From Emticicia sp. BO119 (GTDB taxonomy: Bacteria; Bacteroidota; Bacteroidia; Cytophagales; Spirosomataceae), in NCBI RefSeq assembly GCF_013912375.1, contig NZ_JACETV010000003.1:496001-560000 (forward strand): DNA of 64,000 bases. Reading direction: 5' to 3'. The notes under the pieces were generated by a model. It saw only the letters and a list, made by a program, of their open reading frames with translations. It ran no database searches and was not told the DNA's origin. Both the position numbers and the translations under genes were made by a program. Of the stretch, positions 454 through 12,759 are shown piece by piece (positions within the stretch are counted from its first letter, which is position 1; each line of letters begins with the position of its first letter).

Positions 454-1554
454 TTATTTGTTCTGCGGGAAAAGAGAAATATCCGACTTTTCCGAAAAAG
501 CGATAAATCCTTTTCCGTCGTAACGGCTCAACCCTGTGTTCCTGGTACCTATCCAGAGATTTCCCTTTTTATCTTCCAGAATTGACCACACATCATTATT
601 GATTAGTCCGTCTTTTGTGGTAAAACAAGTGAAAGATTTTTCTTTCGCCATGTGCGAATCAGAATGAGGCGAGGCCGGAGCGTCGTAGCGGCAAATTCCG
701 CTATTACCACCTCCAAACCAAAGATTCCCTTTTCTGTCTTCAATGATTCTGGTAACAGCACCAGATAAACCATCTTCCTTAGTGAAACTGGTGAACGATT
801 TGCCATCATACCGATACGCTCCATTCCAATTGCTAAACCAGATGTATCCTTGTTTGTCTTCCAGAGCGGGCCAGGCCCAACTATCCCCATTGGGTTTAAG
901 ATTGGTGAGGGTTTTACCATCGTAATAAAATACACCTTTATTACCCCGCCCCCCAAACCAGATGTTACCCGATTTATCTTCCAGAATATATTCTACGTTA
1001 TTTTTTTCGTTCATGTATCCACTTACCCCCTCATTAACGGCGAAAGGAATAAAAGATTTGCCATCATAGACATATACACCATTAATTGTTGCAAACCATA
1101 ATTTCCCGCTTTTGGCCTGCATTATACTGAATACATCATGCTTGGTAGCTGGCGTATCAAATATTAGGGGGATTTTAACTTCAACAAAAGTTTTACCGTC
1201 AAAAAAGTAAGCCCCAGCCGCTGTGCCTATCCAGATTTTCCCATTTTTATCTTCCATAATATGATTAATCATATTACTTTTAAGTCCATTCGAGGCTGAA
1301 AATTGGCTGAACGATTTCCCATCATATTTATAAACACCTTCACCCGTAGTCCCAAACCAGAGGTTACTCGCTTTGTCTTGCAGACTACAATGCACATTGT
1401 CGGCAGGTTGTGAACCTTTAGTTTTTGTAAGTATTGGGTGTGTAACAGAAATAGTTGTATTCTCTTTTGGCAAGTTTGTTTTCACTTGTCCGGTGCAGGG
1501 AAAAACAGCCCCCCAAAACAGTGAGAGAAAAGTTAATTTGATTCTATTCATCAT
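454..1554 (-). CDS. Exported two-component-regulator-propeller (Reg_prop) repeat protein
   Basis: 366 aa. The N-terminal signal segment (MMNRIKLTFLSLFWGAVF) ends in a Cys (FPCTG) that could be lipidated. The rest is seven repeats of the Reg_prop type, each with a core like NLWFGT..GVYKYDGKSF and often ending in DGL. Seven repeats fit a single seven-bladed beta-propeller. In Bacteroidota such propellers are usually the periplasmic sensor of hybrid two-component systems (PF07494), but this protein has no transmembrane helix, Y_Y_Y domain or kinase after the propeller. It is the last complete gene of a tandem, same-strand array of relatives. Ligand unknown; a glycan or protein-binding surface propeller is inference. 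Confidence 0.85.
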   Translation of the reverse strand: MMNRIKLTFLSLFWGAVFPCTGQVKTNLPKENTTISVTHPILTKTKGSQPADNVHCSLQDKASNLWFGTTGEGVYKYDGKSFSQFSASNGLKSNMINHIMEDKNGKIWIGTAAGAYFFDGKTFVEVKIPLIFDTPATKHDVFSIMQAKSGKLWFATINGVYVYDGKSFIPFAVNEGVSGYMNEKNNVEYILEDKSGNIWFGGRGNKGVFYYDGKTLTNLKPNGDSWAWPALEDKQGYIWFSNWNGAYRYDGKSFTSFTKEDGLSGAVTRIIEDRKGNLWFGGGNSGICRYDAPASPHSDSHMAKEKSFTCFTTKDGLINNDVWSILEDKKGNLWIGTRNTGLSRYDGKGFIAFSEKSDISLFPQNK

Positions 1555-1583
1555 ATTGTCTCTAAGATTGTCTGCCCTCTGAA

Positions 1584-2669
1584 CTATTTATCCTTAAAAG
1601 CAGTAATAACTCTTTCTCCTGCCCTGAGCGGTGCCGCAGGGTCATACCGATACACCCCACCTAATGAGCCAAACCAGATGCTCCCGTCATTCGCTTCCAG
1701 AATCCCGAAAAGCATGTTTTTATAATCTTCATATCCTTGCATAATGTCGGTTGCTGTTGGCTTCGGGCTCAATAAAGTCTTTGCATCATAACGAGAAAGA
1801 GCCCATCTGTCACCTCCGTTGTAGCTATACTCTGGTTTTGAGCTCGTCCAGATATTGCTCTTTCTGTCTTCATAAACATATCCGGTAAAGTTGAGAGTAA
1901 AATTGGTAAAGGTACTGCCATTAACACGCCAGAGTCCGGGAGCTCCCGCAAGCCAGATATTCCCTTTTTTATCTTCCATAATCGTACGGACATTGATAAA
2001 GGGGTCACCATTATGGGTGAAAATGGTAAACTTTTTCCCATCATAGGTAAAGAGATTTCCTCTTGTAGCAATCCAGAATTTCCCTGTTTTGTCTTCAACA
2101 ATAGAGTTTATATCATTATCGTTAGGGTCTGCATTGGTCAGCCCTGCATTGGGCTTAAAAGTCCGAAACGATTTCCCGTCCCAAAGGCTTGCGCCACCTT
2201 CAGTACCAAACCAGACATTCCCGGATTTGTCTTCGTAGATATGAGGAACGCGGTCATTAGCAAGCCCTTCTTTGGTCGTAAAATGCTGAAAGGCATCCTT
2301 ATGTGTCTTGGAAGGGTTATAATAAAACACGCCTGACCCAATAGACGAAAACCAGAAATTCCCTTTTCTATCCTCTAACACATCAAAAAAACGGGCTTTG
2401 CTCACCTCACTCGTAATATTGGTAAAAGCCTTTCCTCCTATCTTCAACAAACCCGAAGGATCGTACCGGAAAATGCCATCAAATGCCGCAATCCAGATAT
2501 TTCCCTTTTTATCCTGCTTGATATTACGCGTGATACTCAGCGGCCCGTGTGAAGTGACTACTTCTTTAGTTTCTGGTTCGATCGGGTAATAACTTCTTTG
2601 TTGGTTTTGTGCGTTACAAACAGTACAAGAAGTAAATAGCAATAAAACATAGAAGTATAGGTGCTTCAT
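1584..2669 (-). CDS. Exported Reg_prop propeller lipoprotein
   Basis: About 361 aa from the ATG at 2669. A longer frame from 2696 adds nine residues ahead of a textbook signal peptide, so the internal start (MKHLYFYVLLLF) is preferred. The lipobox-like FTSC gives a likely lipid-modified Cys. Seven Reg_prop-type repeats follow (NIWIAAFDGIFRYD, NFWFSSIGSGVFYY, NVWFGTEGGASLWD and so on), the last ending near the C-terminus at SIWFGSLGGVYRYD. No kinase or membrane anchor follows. It is separated from the downstream propeller gene by only 29 bp, which suggests co-transcription. The family is clear; the ligand is unknown. Confidence 0.85.
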   Translation of the reverse strand: MKHLYFYVLLLFTSCTVCNAQNQQRSYYPIEPETKEVVTSHGPLSITRNIKQDKKGNIWIAAFDGIFRYDPSGLLKIGGKAFTNITSEVSKARFFDVLEDRKGNFWFSSIGSGVFYYNPSKTHKDAFQHFTTKEGLANDRVPHIYEDKSGNVWFGTEGGASLWDGKSFRTFKPNAGLTNADPNDNDINSIVEDKTGKFWIATRGNLFTYDGKKFTIFTHNGDPFINVRTIMEDKKGNIWLAGAPGLWRVNGSTFTNFTLNFTGYVYEDRKSNIWTSSKPEYSYNGGDRWALSRYDAKTLLSPKPTATDIMQGYEDYKNMLFGILEANDGSIWFGSLGGVYRYDPAAPLRAGERVITAFKDK

Positions 2670-2820
2670 GATCTTTTTAATAAGTAGTTTCAACAAAAAT
2701 AAATGTCTTTCTATCAGGCTTTTGTTAATGCCTTGTTAAAGGCAGATAATGAATTGTTAATTTATTTGAGACCACATACCACCAGAAAATAAATGCTGAT
2801 CTTTTTACTTTTAAAGTTCG

Positions 2821-2873
2821 TATAGCTCTTTCTGCCCTGAGCGAATAGGACTGACGCTCGGCTGAAAGGCTAT
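2821..2873. repeat. Imperfect long hairpin between propeller genes
   Basis: The two halves of this 53-nt segment pair in three blocks separated by small bulges: ATAGC with GCTAT, CTTTC with GAAAG, and GAGCG with CGCTC, around an 11-nt loop. It lies 33 bp downstream of the propeller-YceI gene and upstream of the next propeller gene. It could be a transcription terminator without a clear U-tract, an mRNA processing element or a REP-like sequence. Confidence 0.5.
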
Positions 2874-2906
2874 AGCCCCCTGGTTGAAATCTAATGGATT
2901 CAGCTA

Positions 2907-4523
2907 TTATTTTTTTGCTACGATGTGCATAAGGAGTTTAACGTCATCCAGAATGGCATCACCAGACTTAGGGAATTGTTTTTCTGAATTATAATTGATA
3001 CCCCAATCTGTTCGATCAATGATTAATGTGCCATTCACCTCTACAGTTCCGTCCATTCCATCCTTAAAATACATTTTAGCTGGAAAAGTAACAGCCTTCG
3101 TGATACCTTCAATAGTCAGGTTCCCTGTAACTTTTAAATTTCCTTCATTTCTTGAATTTCCATCACTCCATTTTTCAACCTTTGCAATAGTTAATGTAGA
3201 AACAGGGAATTTTTTGACATCAAAAAATGGAAGTAATTGATTGAGTGAACGTTGATCAACAAAATTTTCAATAGTATTCATGTCGACTTCAACTACACCA
3301 CTCAGCAGCTGACGGTTGTCAATCAACAACTCTCCTTTTAATATATCTACATCTCCGGTACTGGTACCATCACCAAGAAATTGAGTACCTTCCCATGCAC
3401 CAAGTAGCCTGGAGCCTTTCCATACTACAGCACTTTGCTTCGTATCTATGGCATATTTTTTCTGTCCATCTTTTCGATAATAGTCTGTGATGGTTTTCCC
3501 ATTGTAACTATACACTCCGGTTGCATCTCCAAACCAGATACTTCCATCGTTAGCTTCCAGAAGCCCGAAGAAGGCTCTTCCTGACATAATTTCGGTTAAA
3601 GTGGGATTATCACTATCTAATGTCTCTGCATCATAACGTGAAAGTGCCTGTACCGCCTGATTGGCCGGATTTACGGGGCCAGTTGTCCAGATGTTCCCTT
3701 TTTTATCCTCTATTATAGCATAAGCCCCTCTCTCCGACACCTTAGTAAAAGTACTGCCGTTATAGCGATAGAGGCCACCGGGTCTACGGCCTCCACTAAA
3801 GCCATTGTAACCACTGAGCCAGATAGTGCCTTTTCTATCTTCCATTATAGCCGTAACATGTAGAAAGGGTTCACCTTTATGAGTTAAAGTAGTGAATTTT
3901 TCTCCGTCATAAACAAAGGCGTCGCCCTTTGTGCCAACCCATAATTTCCCTGTTTTATCTTCAATGACTGTATTAATTTCATTATTCCAATGCCCTTCTT
4001 TATAAAAAAGCGGAGCGTTGGGAGATGTAAAATTCCGAAAAGATTTCCCACCTGCCTGGTTGGGATCGTAACGACTTATTCCAGCTCCGGTGCCAAACCA
4101 TATAATGCCGTCTTTATCTTCATAAACAGACTTAACCTGATTGTCGGCAAGACCATCTGTGGTTGTAAAATGTCGAAAGAATTTACCATCATAATGATAA
4201 ATACCTGAGTCAAGAGTTGTGACCCAGATATTTCCGTGTAGATCTTCCAGAACATCCCAGAATTTGTGCTGACCTATTTTATTGGTCAGATTAGTAAAAG
4301 ATTTACCATCGTATCGGAAAACATCACCAAATGATGCGTTGTTCGGGCCAGCAATCAGAATGGTGCCATTTCTGCCTTTTTTTATATTGCGAGCCATTAG
4401 GTTAGGCCCAATGTCTTTTACTTCTAACTTGATACTATCTTTTGGTACGTTTGTTTGTTTTTGTCCACAGGAAGTACAAAAAACAAACACCAGGTACAAA
4501 GCATATATGTGTATGTATTTCAT
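2907..4523 (-). CDS. Reg_prop propeller lipoprotein fused to a YceI domain
   Basis: 538 aa. Signal peptide MKYIHIYALYLVFVF with lipobox CTSC and mature start CGQ. Seven Reg_prop repeats span about residues 45-345 (NIWVTTLDSGIYHYDGKFF, IIWFGTGAGISRYD, SIWFGDATGVYSYNGKTI). Residues 357-538 form a complete YceI-like domain: YAIDTKQSAVVWKG at the start, NLKVTGNLTIEGITK and IDRTDWGINY near the end. YceI domains (PF04264) form a lipocalin-like barrel that binds isoprenoid or other amphiphilic ligands. Joining one to a secreted propeller on a lipoprotein is unusual. The array around it suggests a shared envelope role; the actual substrate cannot be told from sequence. Confidence 0.88.
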   Translation of the reverse strand: MKYIHIYALYLVFVFCTSCGQKQTNVPKDSIKLEVKDIGPNLMARNIKKGRNGTILIAGPNNASFGDVFRYDGKSFTNLTNKIGQHKFWDVLEDLHGNIWVTTLDSGIYHYDGKFFRHFTTTDGLADNQVKSVYEDKDGIIWFGTGAGISRYDPNQAGGKSFRNFTSPNAPLFYKEGHWNNEINTVIEDKTGKLWVGTKGDAFVYDGEKFTTLTHKGEPFLHVTAIMEDRKGTIWLSGYNGFSGGRRPGGLYRYNGSTFTKVSERGAYAIIEDKKGNIWTTGPVNPANQAVQALSRYDAETLDSDNPTLTEIMSGRAFFGLLEANDGSIWFGDATGVYSYNGKTITDYYRKDGQKKYAIDTKQSAVVWKGSRLLGAWEGTQFLGDGTSTGDVDILKGELLIDNRQLLSGVVEVDMNTIENFVDQRSLNQLLPFFDVKKFPVSTLTIAKVEKWSDGNSRNEGNLKVTGNLTIEGITKAVTFPAKMYFKDGMDGTVEVNGTLIIDRTDWGINYNSEKQFPKSGDAILDDVKLLMHIVAKK

Positions 4524-4552
4524 GATTAATACTCATTGACAAATGATTTTAA

Positions 4553-4578
4553 ACTCAGCAATACCATTATTGCTGAGT
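4553..4578 (-). terminator. Perfect 11-bp inverted repeat, candidate terminator
   Basis: ACTCAGCAATA at 4553-4563 is perfectly complemented by TATTGCTGAGT at 4568-4578 across a 4-nt loop. It lies just after the stop of the Asp-box gene (ends 4588) and ahead of the propeller-YceI gene start. On the minus strand the stem is followed by a short T-containing run (TTTAAAATC), so an intrinsic terminator is plausible. An operator is the alternative. Confidence 0.5.
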
Positions 4579-4587
4579 CTGGCGTTT

Positions 4588-5691
4588 TCAACATCCTTTA
4601 TTGGGTAGGATATACATCACATTGCCCGAAACAGATAAATTGAAGCCAAAATTTTCTATAGCCGGAAGTGATAGTTTTTGCCATGTTTTGCCCATGTCAG
4701 CTGACCGGAATATACCATCTGCGCGACCACATAATAAATATTTACCCATTTGTTTGATAGATAAAATATCAGATGAAGATTTAACTAAGCCGACTTTTCT
4801 CATAAATAAATGACTCCAGGAAGGCTGAAGGTCTTCACCTATGGTATTCCAGGTTTTTCCATTATCCTGTGAAATGTGTATTGTGTTTGTTTTGGTTATT
4901 GTATTGTTTACTATAGCGGCAAATCCTCCATCGATACGTTCTATAGCGATGCCATACCCCCCTTCGCTAATCGCGCGATCCCAGTTCTGACCCTCATCAG
5001 TAGATCTTAATATCCCTTCTTTGTCGATAGCTAAAAGTACACCCTCTGACTCTATCAATTTCATTAACCCACCACCAATCTGCACTCGTTCCCAGGTTTT
5101 TCCTTTGTCAGCAGATCTGAAAAGGCTGTTGCCTGCACCGATGAAAACTGTGCCTTGGGCGGTTTCAAAAACGCTGCATACTTGTCTCGCTTTATAATTC
5201 TTGTACATCCAATCTATCGTCGGGTCTAATCGTACGGCTTGCTCCTGAAAATTCGTGTACATGGGAGTCCAATCATTGGTTCCATTTATTTTTTGTAAAA
5301 ACTGACCCCTGAAATCATAAGCAAATATCCCATTCTTGCCAGCGGTAATATTACGTTGTTTACCAGGGAAAGTCTCTTTTGTCCAGAAAGAAGTGGTGGA
5401 ATTTGGTTCACTATGATAAACCCCATCGCCAGCACGTAAATAGAGACCATTGTCAGTTGCCATTAAACCTTCTCTCCACACACCTTCTCTCTGCAATTTT
5501 TCAGGTAGCCCTTTGCTAATGTCCTGCCAGGTTTGTCCGCCATCATCAGATTTAAAAATGATGCTGGCAATATCCGATGATTTACCCTTTTTTACTAGTG
5601 TCTTTTTTGCTTCCTTTTCTTTCAGCACAAAAGAATTCAGTAGAAATAATACCAGCACAATAGCCGGAACAAATACAAATAACTTTTTCAT
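4588..5691 (-). CDS. Exported Asp-box (BNR/sialidase-like repeat) protein
   Basis: 367 aa from the ATG at 5691. A longer frame from 5715 adds eight residues before a normal export signal, so MKKLFVFVPAIVLVLFLL is taken as the start. The signal segment has no lipobox Cys. Five Asp-box motifs of the S-x-D-x-G-x-T-W kind are visible: SDDGGQTW, SADKGKTW, STDEGQNW, SQDNGKTW and SADMGKTW. Asp-boxes sit on beta-propeller blades of sialidases, VPS10-like and photosystem-assembly proteins. No sialidase catalytic arginine motif is obvious, so enzyme activity is not claimed. The gene lies inside the propeller lipoprotein array, in the same orientation. Confidence 0.85.
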   Translation of the reverse strand: MKKLFVFVPAIVLVLFLLNSFVLKEKEAKKTLVKKGKSSDIASIIFKSDDGGQTWQDISKGLPEKLQREGVWREGLMATDNGLYLRAGDGVYHSEPNSTTSFWTKETFPGKQRNITAGKNGIFAYDFRGQFLQKINGTNDWTPMYTNFQEQAVRLDPTIDWMYKNYKARQVCSVFETAQGTVFIGAGNSLFRSADKGKTWERVQIGGGLMKLIESEGVLLAIDKEGILRSTDEGQNWDRAISEGGYGIAIERIDGGFAAIVNNTITKTNTIHISQDNGKTWNTIGEDLQPSWSHLFMRKVGLVKSSSDILSIKQMGKYLLCGRADGIFRSADMGKTWQKLSLPAIENFGFNLSVSGNVMYILPNKGC

Positions 5692-5761
5692 ATTTTTAGA
5701 TTTAAAGTAAAACATATTGAATATTAATTTTTAGTGGAAAGTAGCAGGCCGGCACTACACA

Positions 5762-6862
5762 TTATTTCTGACCCTCTTTAAAGTCTGTGATGGTTTTTCC
5801 ATCATAACGATATACGCCACCACCAGAGCCAAACCAGATATTTCCTTCAGCGTCTTCTAAAATCCCCAAAAGCATTACAGGCTGTGACATAATTTCGGTT
5901 ACTGTGGGCTCTTTATCGTACAGGGTCTTTGAATCATAACGGGAAAGTGCCCATATGTTCCCATTAGGATTTACGCCACCAGTAGTCCAGATGTTGCCTT
6001 TTTTATCCTGGATGATAGCATAAGCCCCCCTATCCGACACTTTAGTAAAGGTGCTGCCGTCAAATCGCCAAAGACCATCGGCACCAAACCAGATGTTTCC
6101 TTTTTTATCTTCGATTATTGACCAAACGTTGTTAAATGGTTTGCCATCTTTGTTTTTTAAAACGGTAAATGCTTTTCCACCAGCCGCTGAAGGATCATAA
6201 ACGAACATATCTTCTCCTTGTGCACAAAACCAAAGCTTACCGGTTTTGTCTTCAAGGAGCAAACGAATACTGTTAGTAGGGAAGCCATCTTCTGTGGTAA
6301 AATTTCGAAAATATTTCCCATCTGCCCTCACCGGAGTATCTGCCGTTGCGGTCGAATCGGACCGCCGAGCGGGATCGTAACGGCTTGCTCCGAACCAGAT
6401 ATAACCTGCTTTATCTTCATAAATATGAAGAACCATATTACTGGCAAGCCCATCCTTTGTTGTAAAATGCTGAAAGGCTTCCCCACCCACCTGTTTGGGA
6501 TTGTAATAATAGACACCTGAATCTCTGGAACCGAACCAAAGATTTCCTTTTCGATCTTCCAGGACATCCCAGAAGCTGGAGAAACGGGGCGGACTTATTT
6601 TATTTGTCAGATTGGTAAACGATTTTCCATTATAACGGAACACCCCTAAGAAAGAAGCAATCAGAATGTCTCCATTTCTGGCTTGTTTTACATGCCGAAC
6701 CATACTCATAGGCACCCCTAAGGTTTCGGCTTCTTTAAGGTAAGCCTCAGTGTATAGTCCTTTACTTACATTGTCCGGTGGCGGATTAGTTTTGTTTTGT
6801 CCTACGCAGGAAGTGTAAGAAACAATTAACATTAAAGCATAGATGTGTAAGTACTTCGCCAT
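5762..6862 (-). CDS. Exported Reg_prop propeller lipoprotein (first of array)
   Basis: 366 aa. Signal peptide MAKYLHIYALMLIVS with lipobox YTSC and mature start CVGQ. Seven Reg_prop repeats can be counted, for example DILIASFLGVFRYNGKSF, NLWFGSRDSGVYYYN, NIWFGADGLWRFDGSTF and NIWFGSGGGVYRYDGKTI. The third blade (YIWFGASRYDPAR) is shortened. The repeats closely resemble those of the propeller-YceI protein, especially around DRGAYAII and the LSRYD blade, pointing to recent duplication. It is the most upstream gene of the minus-strand array, with only 46-70 bp to the next gene, and a promoter probably lies in 6863-7050. Confidence 0.86.
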   Translation of the reverse strand: MAKYLHIYALMLIVSYTSCVGQNKTNPPPDNVSKGLYTEAYLKEAETLGVPMSMVRHVKQARNGDILIASFLGVFRYNGKSFTNLTNKISPPRFSSFWDVLEDRKGNLWFGSRDSGVYYYNPKQVGGEAFQHFTTKDGLASNMVLHIYEDKAGYIWFGASRYDPARRSDSTATADTPVRADGKYFRNFTTEDGFPTNSIRLLLEDKTGKLWFCAQGEDMFVYDPSAAGGKAFTVLKNKDGKPFNNVWSIIEDKKGNIWFGADGLWRFDGSTFTKVSDRGAYAIIQDKKGNIWTTGGVNPNGNIWALSRYDSKTLYDKEPTVTEIMSQPVMLLGILEDAEGNIWFGSGGGVYRYDGKTITDFKEGQK

Positions 6863-7050
6863 TTTTCCAGGAGTTTAGACAAACTTACAAGGTTTTCCTC
6901 TGAGCTATGTGAATGGCTTGTAAAAAGATGTAAACAAAATGTAAATTTGTTTGGGAAAAGTACATGGCTGAGCCGTTAATGCACCTTTCATACATTTTTA
7001 CTACATCAACTTATTGTTATGTAGATAAAATTGTCATATTCCATAACCTT

Positions 7051-8471: not shown

Positions 8472-9953
8472 TCAATCTGCCGTCCGGAATGAAATCCCAT
8501 CCAGACTCAAAAAAGTATTTACGCCACTATAAAACTGTACATTTCCGTTGGGTAATACGTCTATCCTGCCGAAGGTTCCCTCGCCACTTGGGACAGCAAA
8601 AACCTTGATCTCTGCCGGCCGATACCCTGTGGGAAGGCTGAATATCACAGCATTTTTAACAGCAGTACCATCTTTAATCATGCCTTTCAGATGCACCACC
8701 GATTCATTGTCTTTATAATACCCAATGGTTGAATACCCATTATTTAAATGCACCCAGTTATTCTGTAATACCCCCCCTATAAAATTCGGAATGGGTCTGT
8801 TCACCTTTCCGCCTACATTTACATCCCCACTGATAATCATATTGGTCAGGTTGGGGTTATACTCCCAGAAATCATACATATACCCTCCATTATTACCCGT
8901 TCCGACATATCCCTTATTGCCTATAGCAAACCCGACGCCTTCTATGCGGGCAGAGCTTGGATGACCGAAATTGCTTTTTTTTGTCCAGGTATCATTGCCT
9001 GCATTATACTCCCACATATCATTGCGAGCCGTTCCATCTGTTCCGGTTCCTACATATCCTTTTCCACCAATCGAAAACCCGACTGCATGAGACCGTGCGT
9101 TACCTGCAAAGTCTGCTTTCTGGCTCCAGGTATCTGTCTTAGGGTCATACTCCCTGAAGTCGGCCTTTCGTGTGCTTCCGTTAATGCCGGTTCCGATATA
9201 GCCTTTGTTTCTGATTGAAAAGCCAACCGCTCCAGACCTGGCACCACCACTAACATTGGCCTTCTGTGTCCAGGCATTGGCTGTGGAGTCATATTCCCAG
9301 AAATCTTCCTTATTAGTACCTGCACCAATATACCCTTTGTTACCTATAGAAAATCCAACTGCGCTGACTCTGTTTCCTCCTCCGACACTTGCTTTCTGCG
9401 TCCAGATATTAGTAACAGGATTATACTCCCAGAAATCATCTCCGGCTGTCCCACCATCACCTGTTCCTACATATCCTTTATTACCAATTGCAAAACCAAC
9501 TGCATTTCTTCTTACCCCCCCGCCGAAATTTGCTTTCTGGGTCCAGACATTGGTAGCAGGGTTAAACTCCCAGAACTCACTCGTGGTTGGATTAATAGGT
9601 GACCCCTGTATAACACCTGTTCCGATATAACCTTTGTCACCAATAGAAAACCCAACGGCATATTGTCGGCCGGTGCTAAGGTCAGCTTTTCTTGTCCAGT
9701 CGTCCGAAGTGGTCATTTCTAATCCTGAACCACAGAGATTTTGCCAGTCTCCATTCTGAAACACATTAAAACATTCCTCGTTGGTATTATAAATCATTTG
9801 TCCGTTAACCGGAGCAGTGATAGCATTACGCTGAACAGTTGACATCCGCGGAACGTACACTCCGTCGGTTGCCAGTGTACCCGATTGAGCAAATAAATCA
9901 TTGATTCCAAAAAGCGGGAAGAGTATAAAGGCGGTCAGTATAATTCTAATCAT
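8472..9953 (-). CDS. Exported Kelch-repeat protein
   Basis: 493 aa. Signal peptide MIRIILTAFILFPLFGINDLFAQ. Residues about 25-75 form a short module (GQMIYNTNEECFNVFQNGDW) also found at the start of three other surface proteins in this window. Residues about 85-370 carry six or more Kelch-type repeats with the pattern AVGFSIGNKGYVGTG...DFWEYNP..N.WTQKA. These normally build a beta-propeller. The C-terminal ~120 residues look like a compact beta domain (VHLKGMIKDGTAVKNAVIF) resembling tail-fibre or C1q-like trimerising heads. The start codon overlaps the upstream DUF4907 gene by ATGA, so the pair is translationally coupled. Likely surface adhesion; inference. Confidence 0.88.
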   Translation of the reverse strand: MIRIILTAFILFPLFGINDLFAQSGTLATDGVYVPRMSTVQRNAITAPVNGQMIYNTNEECFNVFQNGDWQNLCGSGLEMTTSDDWTRKADLSTGRQYAVGFSIGDKGYIGTGVIQGSPINPTTSEFWEFNPATNVWTQKANFGGGVRRNAVGFAIGNKGYVGTGDGGTAGDDFWEYNPVTNIWTQKASVGGGNRVSAVGFSIGNKGYIGAGTNKEDFWEYDSTANAWTQKANVSGGARSGAVGFSIRNKGYIGTGINGSTRKADFREYDPKTDTWSQKADFAGNARSHAVGFSIGGKGYVGTGTDGTARNDMWEYNAGNDTWTKKSNFGHPSSARIEGVGFAIGNKGYVGTGNNGGYMYDFWEYNPNLTNMIISGDVNVGGKVNRPIPNFIGGVLQNNWVHLNNGYSTIGYYKDNESVVHLKGMIKDGTAVKNAVIFSLPTGYRPAEIKVFAVPSGEGTFGRIDVLPNGNVQFYSGVNTFLSLDGISFRTAD

Positions 9954-10309
9954 TTTAATCTGAGGTTTAGTTCGTTCTCGATTTCTTCTATACTAAGTGT
10001 TGGTGGCAGATACCCCTGAGTAATTTTTGAAGATGCCAGTTCTGCGATTTTCCTGGCATGAGTCTGGGTTTTAAAGGGTTGGTTGCCCGATAAGGCAGGT
10101 ATATTGGGCTGATTGACAATCAATTTATAACGTATATATATACGGTAACCCCACCCGCCTGATAGTGGATGGGTTTCGAATTGAAGGCTATCATTGTAGT
10201 AATACAAGATGCCGTAATCGTTGTTTTTTAAGTGAGGTTTTTCAGGGGTCTGCACCAATGATACAGACACTAACCAACTATACAACAGTAAAAAACCGAA
10301 TACTTTCAT
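9950..10309 (-). CDS. DUF4907-like exported protein
   Basis: 119 aa with an N-terminal hydrophobic signal (MKVFGFLLLYSWLVSVSL). The body has the pattern GGWGYRIYIRYKLIVNQPNIPA, split as GGWGYRI and NQPNIPALSG, then FKTQTHARKIAELASSKI and PPTLS. This is the conserved layout of DUF4907, which often neighbours Kelch-repeat genes in Bacteroidota. The stop overlaps the Kelch start by 4 bp (ATGA), so they form an operon. Biochemical role unknown; partnership with the Kelch protein at the cell surface is inferred from coupling. Confidence 0.85.
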   Translation of the reverse strand: MKVFGFLLLYSWLVSVSLVQTPEKPHLKNNDYGILYYYNDSLQFETHPLSGGWGYRIYIRYKLIVNQPNIPALSGNQPFKTQTHARKIAELASSKITQGYLPPTLSIEEIENELNLRLK

Positions 10310-10731: not shown

Positions 10732-12759
10732 TTAAAATCCAATTCTTCCTTTCGCCTTTTTTCTTTCTCCTTTCGCTATATATTCTCTCATATCTTCTAA
10801 TTCTTTTTCAAAACCTCCACTGAGAATCGGGAAACGACACCAGCTACGGGGATCGAGGTTATGGCTATCCAGATGAAAACTCGGCGCGTAGCGTTCGCGT
10901 TTCCATTGGTTGCGGCTCCAGAGTCTGAAAAACCGCTCTATCCATGCCGCTAATGTCGCACGATCGAAACGCTCAGCAAATTGAGCTTCCATAAATAACA
11001 GACACTCTAAAGGTGGTTTTTTATCTCTTACAGCCACTTTTTCTATCTCGTTCAGCACTTCATAAGGCATCAGGTCTTTTTCATCGGTCTGCTTTTTATC
11101 TAATGGGCGTAGCTCTGCTGTTGGTTGCAGGCTATTTACTTTATGCAACCCTTCTATTTTAATATGTTTGCCTTTTACGTCGCAGCCAACTGTTTCTAAC
11201 CACACCAACCATTGTTTAAGCCAGAATTTGTCTATACCTGCAATGGGGTTGATACTTCCGGCGGTGTCGCCGTCCATAGTGCAGTAACCCACCGCTACTT
11301 CCGAGCGGTTTGAGGTTGCCAGAAGCAGGTGATTATACAGGTTTGTCAATAACCATACACCCGGGGCGCGTACCCGTGCCTGAATATTCTGTAAAGGCAA
11401 ATCGTCGGTTTCCCAGGTCAGATTACGGCCGATCTGGTCTTCAATGAGCCCTTTATAGGTTTCTACCAGCCCATTGATGTTGATATTATAAAAGGTTGCT
11501 CCGATTGATTGAGCCAGGGTCTCTGCCGATTCATAGGTATCTGCCGAACTATTTTCTGTGCCCTGATAAATACTGTGAATCAGTTCTGTGGTTAGTTCTT
11601 CTACGGTGTTACAATTCTGTATTTTTTTGATATAAGAGAGTTTTTGCTTGAACGCACCTAAACCAATACTCTCATCGGCCAGCCGGATCATTAACCCACA
11701 CAAAGCTACACACGCGCAGGAATCTGCTCCACCCGATAATGAAACGGTAAAACCCTGAGAGCGTGATTTCCGAAGATAATCGAATAAAGCTAATGAGACC
11801 GCACGGGCAAATTCTTCTTCTTTCAGGTAGCCTCCTCTTTCAAACTTCTCTAATTCGGCATATTGATTGGCAACTGGTTTAATCTCAGGGAAATCAAACA
11901 GAAGAGCTACTTTCCAGGTACTTGCCAGAATCGGCGATTTAATTTGGGAATGGTTGACCTTTGGTGCTTCAATATCAATAGTGGCACTGGTTACATAAAA
12001 ATCATTATAACCGAAACGAGGCGATGAAACCAACAGATTACCATCAGAGGCAATCATGGCATCACCATCAAAAATAAGGCGACCCGATTCATTACCCAAT
12101 AGATTGGTATAGATATAACTACAAGCAAACGAACGGCTGCCATCAATGACAAATCGTTCACGTGTCATGAATTTTGAAAATGAAAACGGGCTTGCACTTG
12201 GGTTGAGAATAATATCAACGGCTCTATCGAACAATACTCTACCCGGACGATTAGCTACCCAGGCGTCTTCACAAATCTCAAAGCCGATGCGTACACCACT
12301 CAAGTCAAACACTAAATCTCCAATCGGATATTTGAATTCATCAATTTCAATTTCGTCTCGCAAGCCAGTTTGCCAGCGATGAAACCATCGGTCTTCGTAA
12401 AATACCCCATAGTTGGGCAGGTGCTGTTTGCACACAAAGCCCAGAATACGCTTGTTGGCTATCAGGCAGGAAGTATTGAAAATTTTGTTATTAAACCGAA
12501 TTGGCAAACCTACTGATACAATCATACCCGAAGTGTGTTGCACGATTTCGAAGAGACTTTCTTTTGCCTGTTCGGCAACATCAAACGAATAAAACGCATC
12601 TTCACAACCATAACCTGTGATACATAATTCGGGCAGGCATAACAGGCTCACATCTTGTTTATCGGCTTCTTTGATGCAGTCAATAATATTTTTGCGGTTC
12701 TGTTCCCAGGCCAATGGTGTCTGGTTCAATGTTCCGGCAGCTACTTTAATCAGTTTCAT
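10732..12759 (-). CDS. nadE: Glutamine-dependent NAD+ synthetase
   Basis: 675 aa, the normal size for the two-domain enzyme. The N-terminal nitrilase-type glutaminase has its Glu-Lys-Cys triad visible: E44 in CLPELCITGYG, K111 in CKQHLPNYG and C163 in GFEICEDAW. The C-terminal synthetase has the ATP-pyrophosphatase loop SGGADS at 342-347. It converts nicotinic acid adenine dinucleotide, ATP and glutamine to NAD+ in the cytoplasm, using ammonia channelled between the domains. The start MKLIKVAAGTLNQTPLAWEQ is typical. A lipoprotein gene ends 36 bp upstream, so they may be co-transcribed. Confidence 0.97.
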   Translation of the reverse strand: MKLIKVAAGTLNQTPLAWEQNRKNIIDCIKEADKQDVSLLCLPELCITGYGCEDAFYSFDVAEQAKESLFEIVQHTSGMIVSVGLPIRFNNKIFNTSCLIANKRILGFVCKQHLPNYGVFYEDRWFHRWQTGLRDEIEIDEFKYPIGDLVFDLSGVRIGFEICEDAWVANRPGRVLFDRAVDIILNPSASPFSFSKFMTRERFVIDGSRSFACSYIYTNLLGNESGRLIFDGDAMIASDGNLLVSSPRFGYNDFYVTSATIDIEAPKVNHSQIKSPILASTWKVALLFDFPEIKPVANQYAELEKFERGGYLKEEEFARAVSLALFDYLRKSRSQGFTVSLSGGADSCACVALCGLMIRLADESIGLGAFKQKLSYIKKIQNCNTVEELTTELIHSIYQGTENSSADTYESAETLAQSIGATFYNININGLVETYKGLIEDQIGRNLTWETDDLPLQNIQARVRAPGVWLLTNLYNHLLLATSNRSEVAVGYCTMDGDTAGSINPIAGIDKFWLKQWLVWLETVGCDVKGKHIKIEGLHKVNSLQPTAELRPLDKKQTDEKDLMPYEVLNEIEKVAVRDKKPPLECLLFMEAQFAERFDRATLAAWIERFFRLWSRNQWKRERYAPSFHLDSHNLDPRSWCRFPILSGGFEKELEDMREYIAKGERKKAKGRIGF

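Follow-up and report, generated by a model that had tools for sequence, protein, structure and literature searches.

What do propellers of the kind found in two-component sensors do in proteins that have no kinase? The question is raised by an array of genes at positions 454-6862 of a 64-kb window (the whole stretch of DNA analyzed here, part of a 583-kb contig) in the 6.57-Mb genome of Emticicia sp. BO119, which belongs to the same genus as Emticicia sp. C21. A preliminary description of the window had noted four exported Reg_prop proteins at this place and had suggested that they were surface ligand-binding lipoproteins, detached co-sensors or decoys. We consider it probable that the observations, taken as a whole, are best explained if the propeller lipoproteins are kinase-independent outputs of one regulon under a membrane one-component regulator. 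The evidence was obtained by computation and consists of the folds of two members, a gene fusion, the architecture and spread of a promoter, the co-occurrence and adjacency of operator and regulator, and low synonymous divergence.

Proteins of the array

The genes of the array all lie on the minus strand, in the transcriptional order R1, BNR propeller, R2, R3 and R4. Pfam searches recovered the four Reg_prop open reading frames (ORFs) of the preliminary description (E values from 2.8e-23 to 3.3e-36). R1 (5762-6862; 366 aa; Reg_prop E 4.9e-32) is a single-propeller lipoprotein with the lipobox YTSC, and its closest relative, at 79-80% identity, is found in another family of the order. R3 (1584-2669; 361 aa; E 2.7e-29; lipobox FTSC) is of the same type; it starts with an ATG, and the TTG start listed at 2696 overlaps the promoter. 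R4 (454-1554; 366 aa; E 3.3e-36) is the most divergent of the single propellers and has a non-canonical lipobox, VFPC. R2 (2907-4523; 538 aa; E 2.8e-23; lipobox CTSC) is a fusion of a propeller half (3459-4523, with seven Reg_prop motifs) to a C-terminal, lipocalin-like YceI domain (2907-3458; PF04264 at residues 357-536, E 1.6e-23), which scores 84.1 bits against a curated cut-off of 23.7 and therefore belongs to the YceI family. Seven motifs were counted in each of R1-R4, the first being degenerate in R1 and R2, and the lipobox is canonical in R1, R2 and R3, so that the repeat number and the mostly present lipobox were both described correctly. The make-up of the array was described only in part: the four Reg_prop genes stand, and the YceI domain that ends the 538-aa protein and an inner gene had been missed. 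The array has five genes because the ORF at 4588-5715 (375 aa; PF02012, 46 bits against a cut-off of 27) encodes a BNR/Asp-box propeller, exported or N-terminally membrane-anchored; its likely start is at 5691. At 1e-30, BNR was matched in 16 of 291 genomes of the order, the own genome included, and five of the others are 69-74% identical.

AlphaFold was run on R2 and R4, and both models are propellers. The R4 model has seven blades (predicted local distance difference test, pLDDT, 73.0; predicted template modelling score, pTM, 0.75); in that of R2 (pLDDT 75.9) the YceI domain is the less confident part. By both sequence and fold, the best matches in the Protein Data Bank were Reg_prop hybrid two-component sensors (BT4663, BT3049 and BT4673), whose propeller is homologous. 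However, while Reg_prop was found in all four array proteins, no Y_Y_Y, kinase, receiver, AraC or other helix-turn-helix domain was found in any of them by Pfam at E <= 1. Unlike the hybrid sensors, the array proteins have one propeller rather than two, are lipoproteins, and are apparently a regulated output; they are indeed stand-alone, kinase-less proteins. PorZ of the type IX secretion system likewise shares Reg_prop-type repeats (fold match 5m11), but the array proteins score 27-64 bits with its family model (NF052228), far under the cut-off of 260 bits, and again have one propeller only. The profile of the R2 YceI domain matched solved YceI proteins, and Foldseek matched it to TT1927b, PA0423 and BcnA. 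R2 and several of the operator-linked genes described below are thus related to the YceI/BcnA bacterial lipocalins, from which R2 differs in that its YceI domain is lipid-anchored and fused to a propeller; a linked cytochrome b561 gene is given in PMC9113575 as the defining feature of the BcnA/LcoA system. Between BNR and R2 the sequence contains a perfect 11-bp hairpin on the minus strand (4553-4578), a possible terminator or attenuator, which is absent from the six terminator-like sites of a separate scan. A further beta-propeller gene near the array encodes a Kelch-repeat protein (8472-9953) and is followed by a gene for a DUF4907 protein (9950-10309).

A putative operator and a candidate membrane regulator

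Two genes of the array are preceded by tandem half-sites. In the R1 promoter (6880-6957, minus strand), TTTAC-type half-sites precede the -7 box TAAGTTTG by 58, 47, 37 and 26 nt, and in the R3 promoter (2694-2771, minus strand) they lie 59, 38 and 27 nt upstream of TATTTTTG; the respective E values with the promoter profile described below are 7.0e-18 and 3.8e-12, both promoters being in its training set. The half-sites are about 10.7 bp apart, in register with a TAnnTTTG box. On both strands of the window, in-register sites were found only at R1 (four half-sites) and R3 (three), and 20 first-order resamplings gave 0.4 sites per 64 kb with at least two half-sites and 0.0 with at least three. 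A plain scan of the own genome for three TTWAC repeats was uninformative (11 matches versus 9 in a reversed control); specificity came only from the register with the -7 box and from the promoter profile. The window also contains 11 occurrences of TTTG-N17-23-TANNTTTG, the Bacteroidota promoter pattern, against a mean of 4.4 in shuffles (positions 1-64000).

The same architecture recurs in front of related genes. We looked at 59 upstream regions and kept 45 (29 of propeller-YceI fusions and 16 others); ten of the 14 that were dropped lay close behind a same-strand gene, and four had no motif (a Chitinophaga R3-like gene, the YceI gene of G001, a broken copy in G027, and G155; G-numbers denote genomes of relatives, L-numbers extracted loci). 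In four regions the -7 box was set by hand; in all others it was the sole match within range or the first one. In the 45 promoters, TT(T/A/C)AC half-sites stand 26-27, 37-38, 47-50, 58-60 or 70-71 nt upstream of TAnnTT(T/C)(G/A), and 142 of 145 are in register, with the register bounds taken from the same counts. The nearest half-site would lie over the -33 region, as at activator-dependent promoters. Two homologs of BNR (L195, L204) have an operator of their own, and the promoter of the stand-alone YceI lipoprotein gene of the window genome is nearly identical to that of R1. YceI genes are met fused to a propeller, next to the regulator or Reg_prop genes, or under an R1-like promoter. In G027 and G013 (L196, L070:11072-11419), proteins whose C-terminal parts differ are preceded by a promoter and leader peptide resembling those of the Reg_prop genes, which looks as though the two formed a cassette that can be re-used.

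The candidate regulator, about 300 aa long, has two hydrophobic stretches, one at the N-terminus and one behind a conserved middle domain, and ends in a winged helix (PF00486; E 1.6e-19 for the own copy, where it spans residues 217-291 of 295, and 7.1e-20 to 2.5e-15 for four others). The middle domain gave no Pfam match and no plasmid match; it might resemble the periplasmic domain of the RprX kinase. In ToxR and CadC the winged helix is N-terminal, whereas in the candidate it follows the second hydrophobic stretch, which sets the protein apart from that subgroup, as do the middle domain and the putative targets, propeller and YceI lipoproteins. Like the transmembrane transcription regulators of this ToxR/CadC-like class (surveyed in PMC10269533), it would join a membrane-anchored non-cytoplasmic domain and a DNA-binding domain in one protein; the same survey found the phylum to be rich in membrane-anchored regulators.

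We link this protein to the operator because of adjacency and co-occurrence. One full-length copy is present in each of the 11 genomes of the genus, and in all 11 it stands beside a divergent promoter with 3-5 in-register half-sites (and one extra half-site out of register in G002); nine of these promoters are outside the set of 45. The promoter faces a Reg_prop gene in G005 and G009, a 180-aa gene followed by Reg_prop genes in G004, G006 and G010, a YceI gene likewise followed by Reg_prop genes in G007, a 132-133-aa gene and then a YceI gene in the own genome, G001 and G008, and a 132-aa gene in G002; in G003 the locus is cut by the contig end. Across the order, a single query found the regulator at 1e-25 in 46 of 291 genomes, three of them by partial matches. 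It was present in 20 of the 29 genomes with an R2-like match and in 26 of the 262 others, counts that ignore kinship. A profile search found it in all 25 fusion-bearing named genomes searched (26 of the 30 loci were submitted and one dropped out), in Spirosoma telluris as two adjacent pieces. At two of the 30 fusion loci, those of Chitinophaga barathri and Pedobacter frigidisoli, the regulator gene and the fusion itself form a directly divergent pair. Eight of 20 untrained regulator loci in fusion genomes had a profile match to the operator, in each case upstream on the regulator's strand.

A sequence-only profile built from 19 promoters was used to look for further members of the regulon. In 38 relatives, own genome included, it gave 35 matches at E <= 1e-4, of which 11 were training promoters and 24 were not. 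Ten of these 24 are at the regulator locus (G003, G004, G006, G012, G013, G014, G018, G021, G023 and G027). The rest precede fusions (two), insertion-broken Reg_prop copies of G027 (two), BNR genes (two, one with YceI next), a serine hydrolase (PF00144), a member of the 180-aa family that elsewhere stands ahead of Reg_prop genes, three other exported or lipoprotein-like proteins, an FGE-type gene and a DUF1573 gene, and one match is unclear. The operator precedes serine-hydrolase genes in G008 and G013; in G014 the second gene behind it is transpeptidase-like. The regulator was found in 21 of the 38 relatives (intact in 20, and in G027 as two pieces separated by about 1 kb), and at 1e-4 the operator was matched in 14 of these 21 (13 with an intact regulator, and G027) versus none of the 17 others (Fisher 1.7e-5). 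In G027, where the regulator is in two pieces, Reg_prop lipoprotein copies (L063, L064) are broken by transposase genes. Small exported families without a Pfam match, of 136, 142 and about 180 aa (L206:432-842, L206:862-1290 and L198:5460-6026), recur in the regulator operon or ahead of Reg_prop genes.

Relationships and probable transfer of the array genes

The propeller-YceI fusion was found by a scan of genome contigs at 30 named loci, where nearly the whole query was matched and the best segments were 64-82% identical, and in one short match. The hosts are Emticicia, Larkinella, Spirosoma, Fibrella, Fibrivirga, Rudanella, Pedobacter, Chitinophaga, Flavihumibacter, an unclassified Cytophagales bin and one record labelled Flavobacterium; an R2-like match at 1e-25, with longer proteins counted too, was present in 29 of 291 genomes of the order. 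We dropped Flavobacteriales as a host order, the fusion of that one record (L110, Flavobacterium sp. SUN052) grouping with Spirosoma and Rudanella genes; its genome is of 8.1 Mb and the record is probably mislabelled as to organism. A quick tree was made of 66 propellers, in which a single branch (support 99) has the 33 fusions, and all of them, on one side. The other array members pair with genes of other genomes, R1 with G027 (100), R3 with G008 (99) and R4 with G007 (97), the position of R4 being less sure because it is a long branch. The array therefore unites lineages older than the species. Recent tandem duplication was rejected on this ground. The diversifying selection that the preliminary description had seen suggested by repeated duplication is contradicted by this grouping and by the ratio of nonsynonymous to synonymous divergence (dN/dS), which was 0.13-0.36 in 15 of 16 pairwise comparisons, the remaining pair, R3-R4, being saturated.

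Synonymous divergence (dS) differed among the genes of the array. Comparison of R2 with its counterparts in Emticicia C21, Larkinella rosea and Pedobacter frigidisoli gave 0.43, 0.56 and 0.65, respectively; for R1 against G027 it was 0.45, and for BNR against C21 0.38. The values of R3 were 1.41 against C21 and 1.01 against G008. A control gene, NAD synthase (10732-12759), gave 1.60 against C21 and 1.18 against G008 and was saturated against Larkinella and G027. Six genomes were tried, and those of Pedobacter frigidisoli and Chitinophaga chungangae yielded no NAD synthase match and hence have no control. These are single-pair estimates with one control gene. Because dS is low relative to NAD synthase for R1, BNR and R2 and not for R3, the first three look horizontally acquired and R3 vertically inherited. 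Between fusion loci, homology continues beyond the start codon on the upstream side for medians of 16-128 nt, and for up to 1053 nt in one pair that shares the regulator gene, and it stops near the stop codon (medians of -12 to 5 nt, with up to 217 nt in a few pairs). Carriage of the fusion by plasmids or phages was rejected: plasmids yielded three partial matches, none covering 80% of the query, and phages yielded none.

In Pedobacter and Chitinophaga, the regulator may have moved as well. Of six copies compared, five share 71-78% identity although they come from two orders, and that of P. psychroterrae is 46-50% identical to them; the P. panaciterrae copy has 78% identity to a Chitinophaga copy and 50% to that of P. 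psychroterrae. A resident regulator is therefore established for the genus at most.

A proposed regulon and its alternatives

In the model that we favor, the regulator would be encoded on the chromosome and consist, from its N- to its C-terminus, of a helix, a periplasmic domain, another helix and an OmpR-type winged helix; its DNA binding, activation of transcription and membrane topology, like the periplasmic side and the ligand of its targets, are what we infer. On sensing a signal in the envelope, the regulator would bind TT(T/A)ACA half-sites that follow one another along a single face of the DNA, at the position expected of a -33 element. It would thereby activate the genes for Reg_prop, BNR, YceI, serine-hydrolase and further exported proteins as well as its own or the divergent operon. 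R1, BNR and R2 would have come into this Emticicia lineage horizontally. R1 keeps its own operator and would therefore have arrived pre-wired into the resident regulator, and R2 would have lost its own and rely on upstream genes. As to location, acidic residues at +2 to +6 after the lipid-bearing cysteine are the surface-export rule for lipoproteins; among 36 members examined, none of the 34 with a lipobox has at least two acidic residues there, so that the periplasmic side is the default, and the surface exposure first proposed finds no support. The likeliest ligands of the products, bound in the periplasm, would be small amphipathic or lipid-derived molecules: YceI homology, together with the BcnA literature (PMC5350466, PMC9113575), points to amphipathic compounds or lipid peroxidation products. 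As a guess, bound ligand might be fed back to the periplasmic domain of the regulator.

Several observations weigh against this model. R2, BNR and R4 were found to have no operator of their own in the window, and the array and the regulator are on different contigs of the window genome, where the regulator locus is absent among the profile matches listed (to E of about 0.35) and was found by half-site register. The profile matches at R1, R3 and the own YceI gene are circular because these promoters trained the profile, which scored 123 first-look candidates per genome only. The placement of the conserved domain between two hydrophobic stretches, and with it the topology, was read from the alignment by eye. 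Nine of the 29 genomes with an R2-like match have no regulator at 1e-25, seven of the 21 regulator-bearing relatives have no operator match at 1e-4, and 12 of the 20 untrained regulator loci have none at 0.5. The co-occurrence counts take no account of kinship and come from overlapping samples (G001 and the C21 record are apparently one genome). G011 and G024 encode stand-alone Reg_prop lipoproteins and have no full-length regulator, so not every such protein belongs to the regulon. The possible mobility of the regulator and the presence of receiver domains in six of the 117 near neighbors of fusion loci count on the same side.

The last point bears on the proposal that the propellers are detached co-sensors, periplasmic ligand-binding partners of adjoining kinases, a proposal made more attractive by what lies just beyond the window. 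No kinase was found within the array proteins, as had been described; nearby, that description fails, since just left of position 1 (L061:6376-11755), within about 6 kb of the end of the array, are genes for a LytTR response regulator, two 7TMR-DISM histidine kinases and a 116-aa LytTR-only protein. The R3 orthologs of G001 and G008 adjoin the same block, which thus neighbors arrays in three genomes of the genus, and LytTR-type genes occur at most 9 kb from three of 30 fusion loci (the domain was checked for one), receiver, LytTR and kinase genes being present within that distance of some. However, the block is convergent with the array, no TTTAC-type promoter signature was found upstream of its kinase and LytTR genes, and the related kinases sit elsewhere in G003, G004, G006 and G007. 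Among the 117 genes within two steps of the 30 fusion loci, Pfam at 1e-5 gave six receiver, four AraC and at most one histidine-kinase/HATPase match (read from the best 25 of 130 families by count), so that a kinase is not conserved beside these stand-alone homologs. We therefore set these neighbors aside as partners and regard the co-sensor proposal as very unlikely. The idea that the proteins are surface decoys, or lipoproteins of variable antigenicity, whose genes multiplied locally under diversifying selection fares worse still and is largely refuted: the genes are tandem paralogs on one strand, and the three pairs compared are 34-60% identical, but the dN/dS values, the grouping of members with relatives elsewhere rather than with each other, and the lack of an acidic export signal in the lipobox members all speak against it.

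A closer competitor concerns the identity of the regulator. The operator could be that of a conventional response regulator of the OmpR family that has a kinase of its own, the membrane winged-helix protein being another member or a modulator of the regulon; OmpR/PhoB-type regulators classically target direct repeats at a spacing of one helical turn, and further proteins of these genomes match the winged helix, though over that domain only. Judging from the one association examined, that of the operator with the membrane protein, we think this improbable: the membrane protein is present in all 14 operator-positive relatives, none of the 17 relatives without a full-length copy has a strong operator match, and the operator stands beside it at all 11 genus loci. 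A functional alternative is less improbable, though still doubtful: the regulon may serve to defend the envelope, its YceI/BcnA-like and propeller lipoproteins intercepting antibiotics or products of lipid peroxidation on their way to the membrane. The YceI domain of R2 matches BcnA and other polyisoprenoid-binding lipocalins in fold, serine hydrolases (G008, G013) and a transpeptidase-like gene (G014) are operator-linked, and BcnA captures antibiotics (PMC5350466) and protects from lipid peroxyl radicals (PMC9113575). Yet this is similarity of fold only. A virginiamycin-lyase activity was also considered and set aside as resting on fold: the likeness of the propellers to virginiamycin B lyase (target-normalised template modelling score 0.70-0.76) is expected of any seven-bladed propeller, at 11-15% identity.

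If the proposed regulon is accepted, a wider scheme suggests itself, which we offer tentatively as a possibility. Single genes or pairs for exported capture proteins (propellers, lipocalins, hydrolases) might circulate among families and orders of Bacteroidota with a standard operator-promoter, and sometimes a standard leader, plugging into a membrane-anchored regulator that is already present or moves with them; the sensor propeller of hybrid systems would have been re-used as a kinase-free, one-component output, possibly with ligand feedback. Among the open-licence papers searched, we found none that joins Reg_prop lipoproteins with YceI and none that names such an operator; a Burkholderia immunoproteome paper (PMC7565204) contains both the words YceI and beta-propeller. 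Stand-alone Reg_prop proteins are usually named after two-component regulators, a name that seems misleading here for a whole subfamily, whose members look like regulated products. The result is a concrete candidate operator, a single candidate regulator and a list of targets, and hence a directly testable regulon, as well as an example of genes that apparently travel with a promoter suited to the regulator of the recipient genome.

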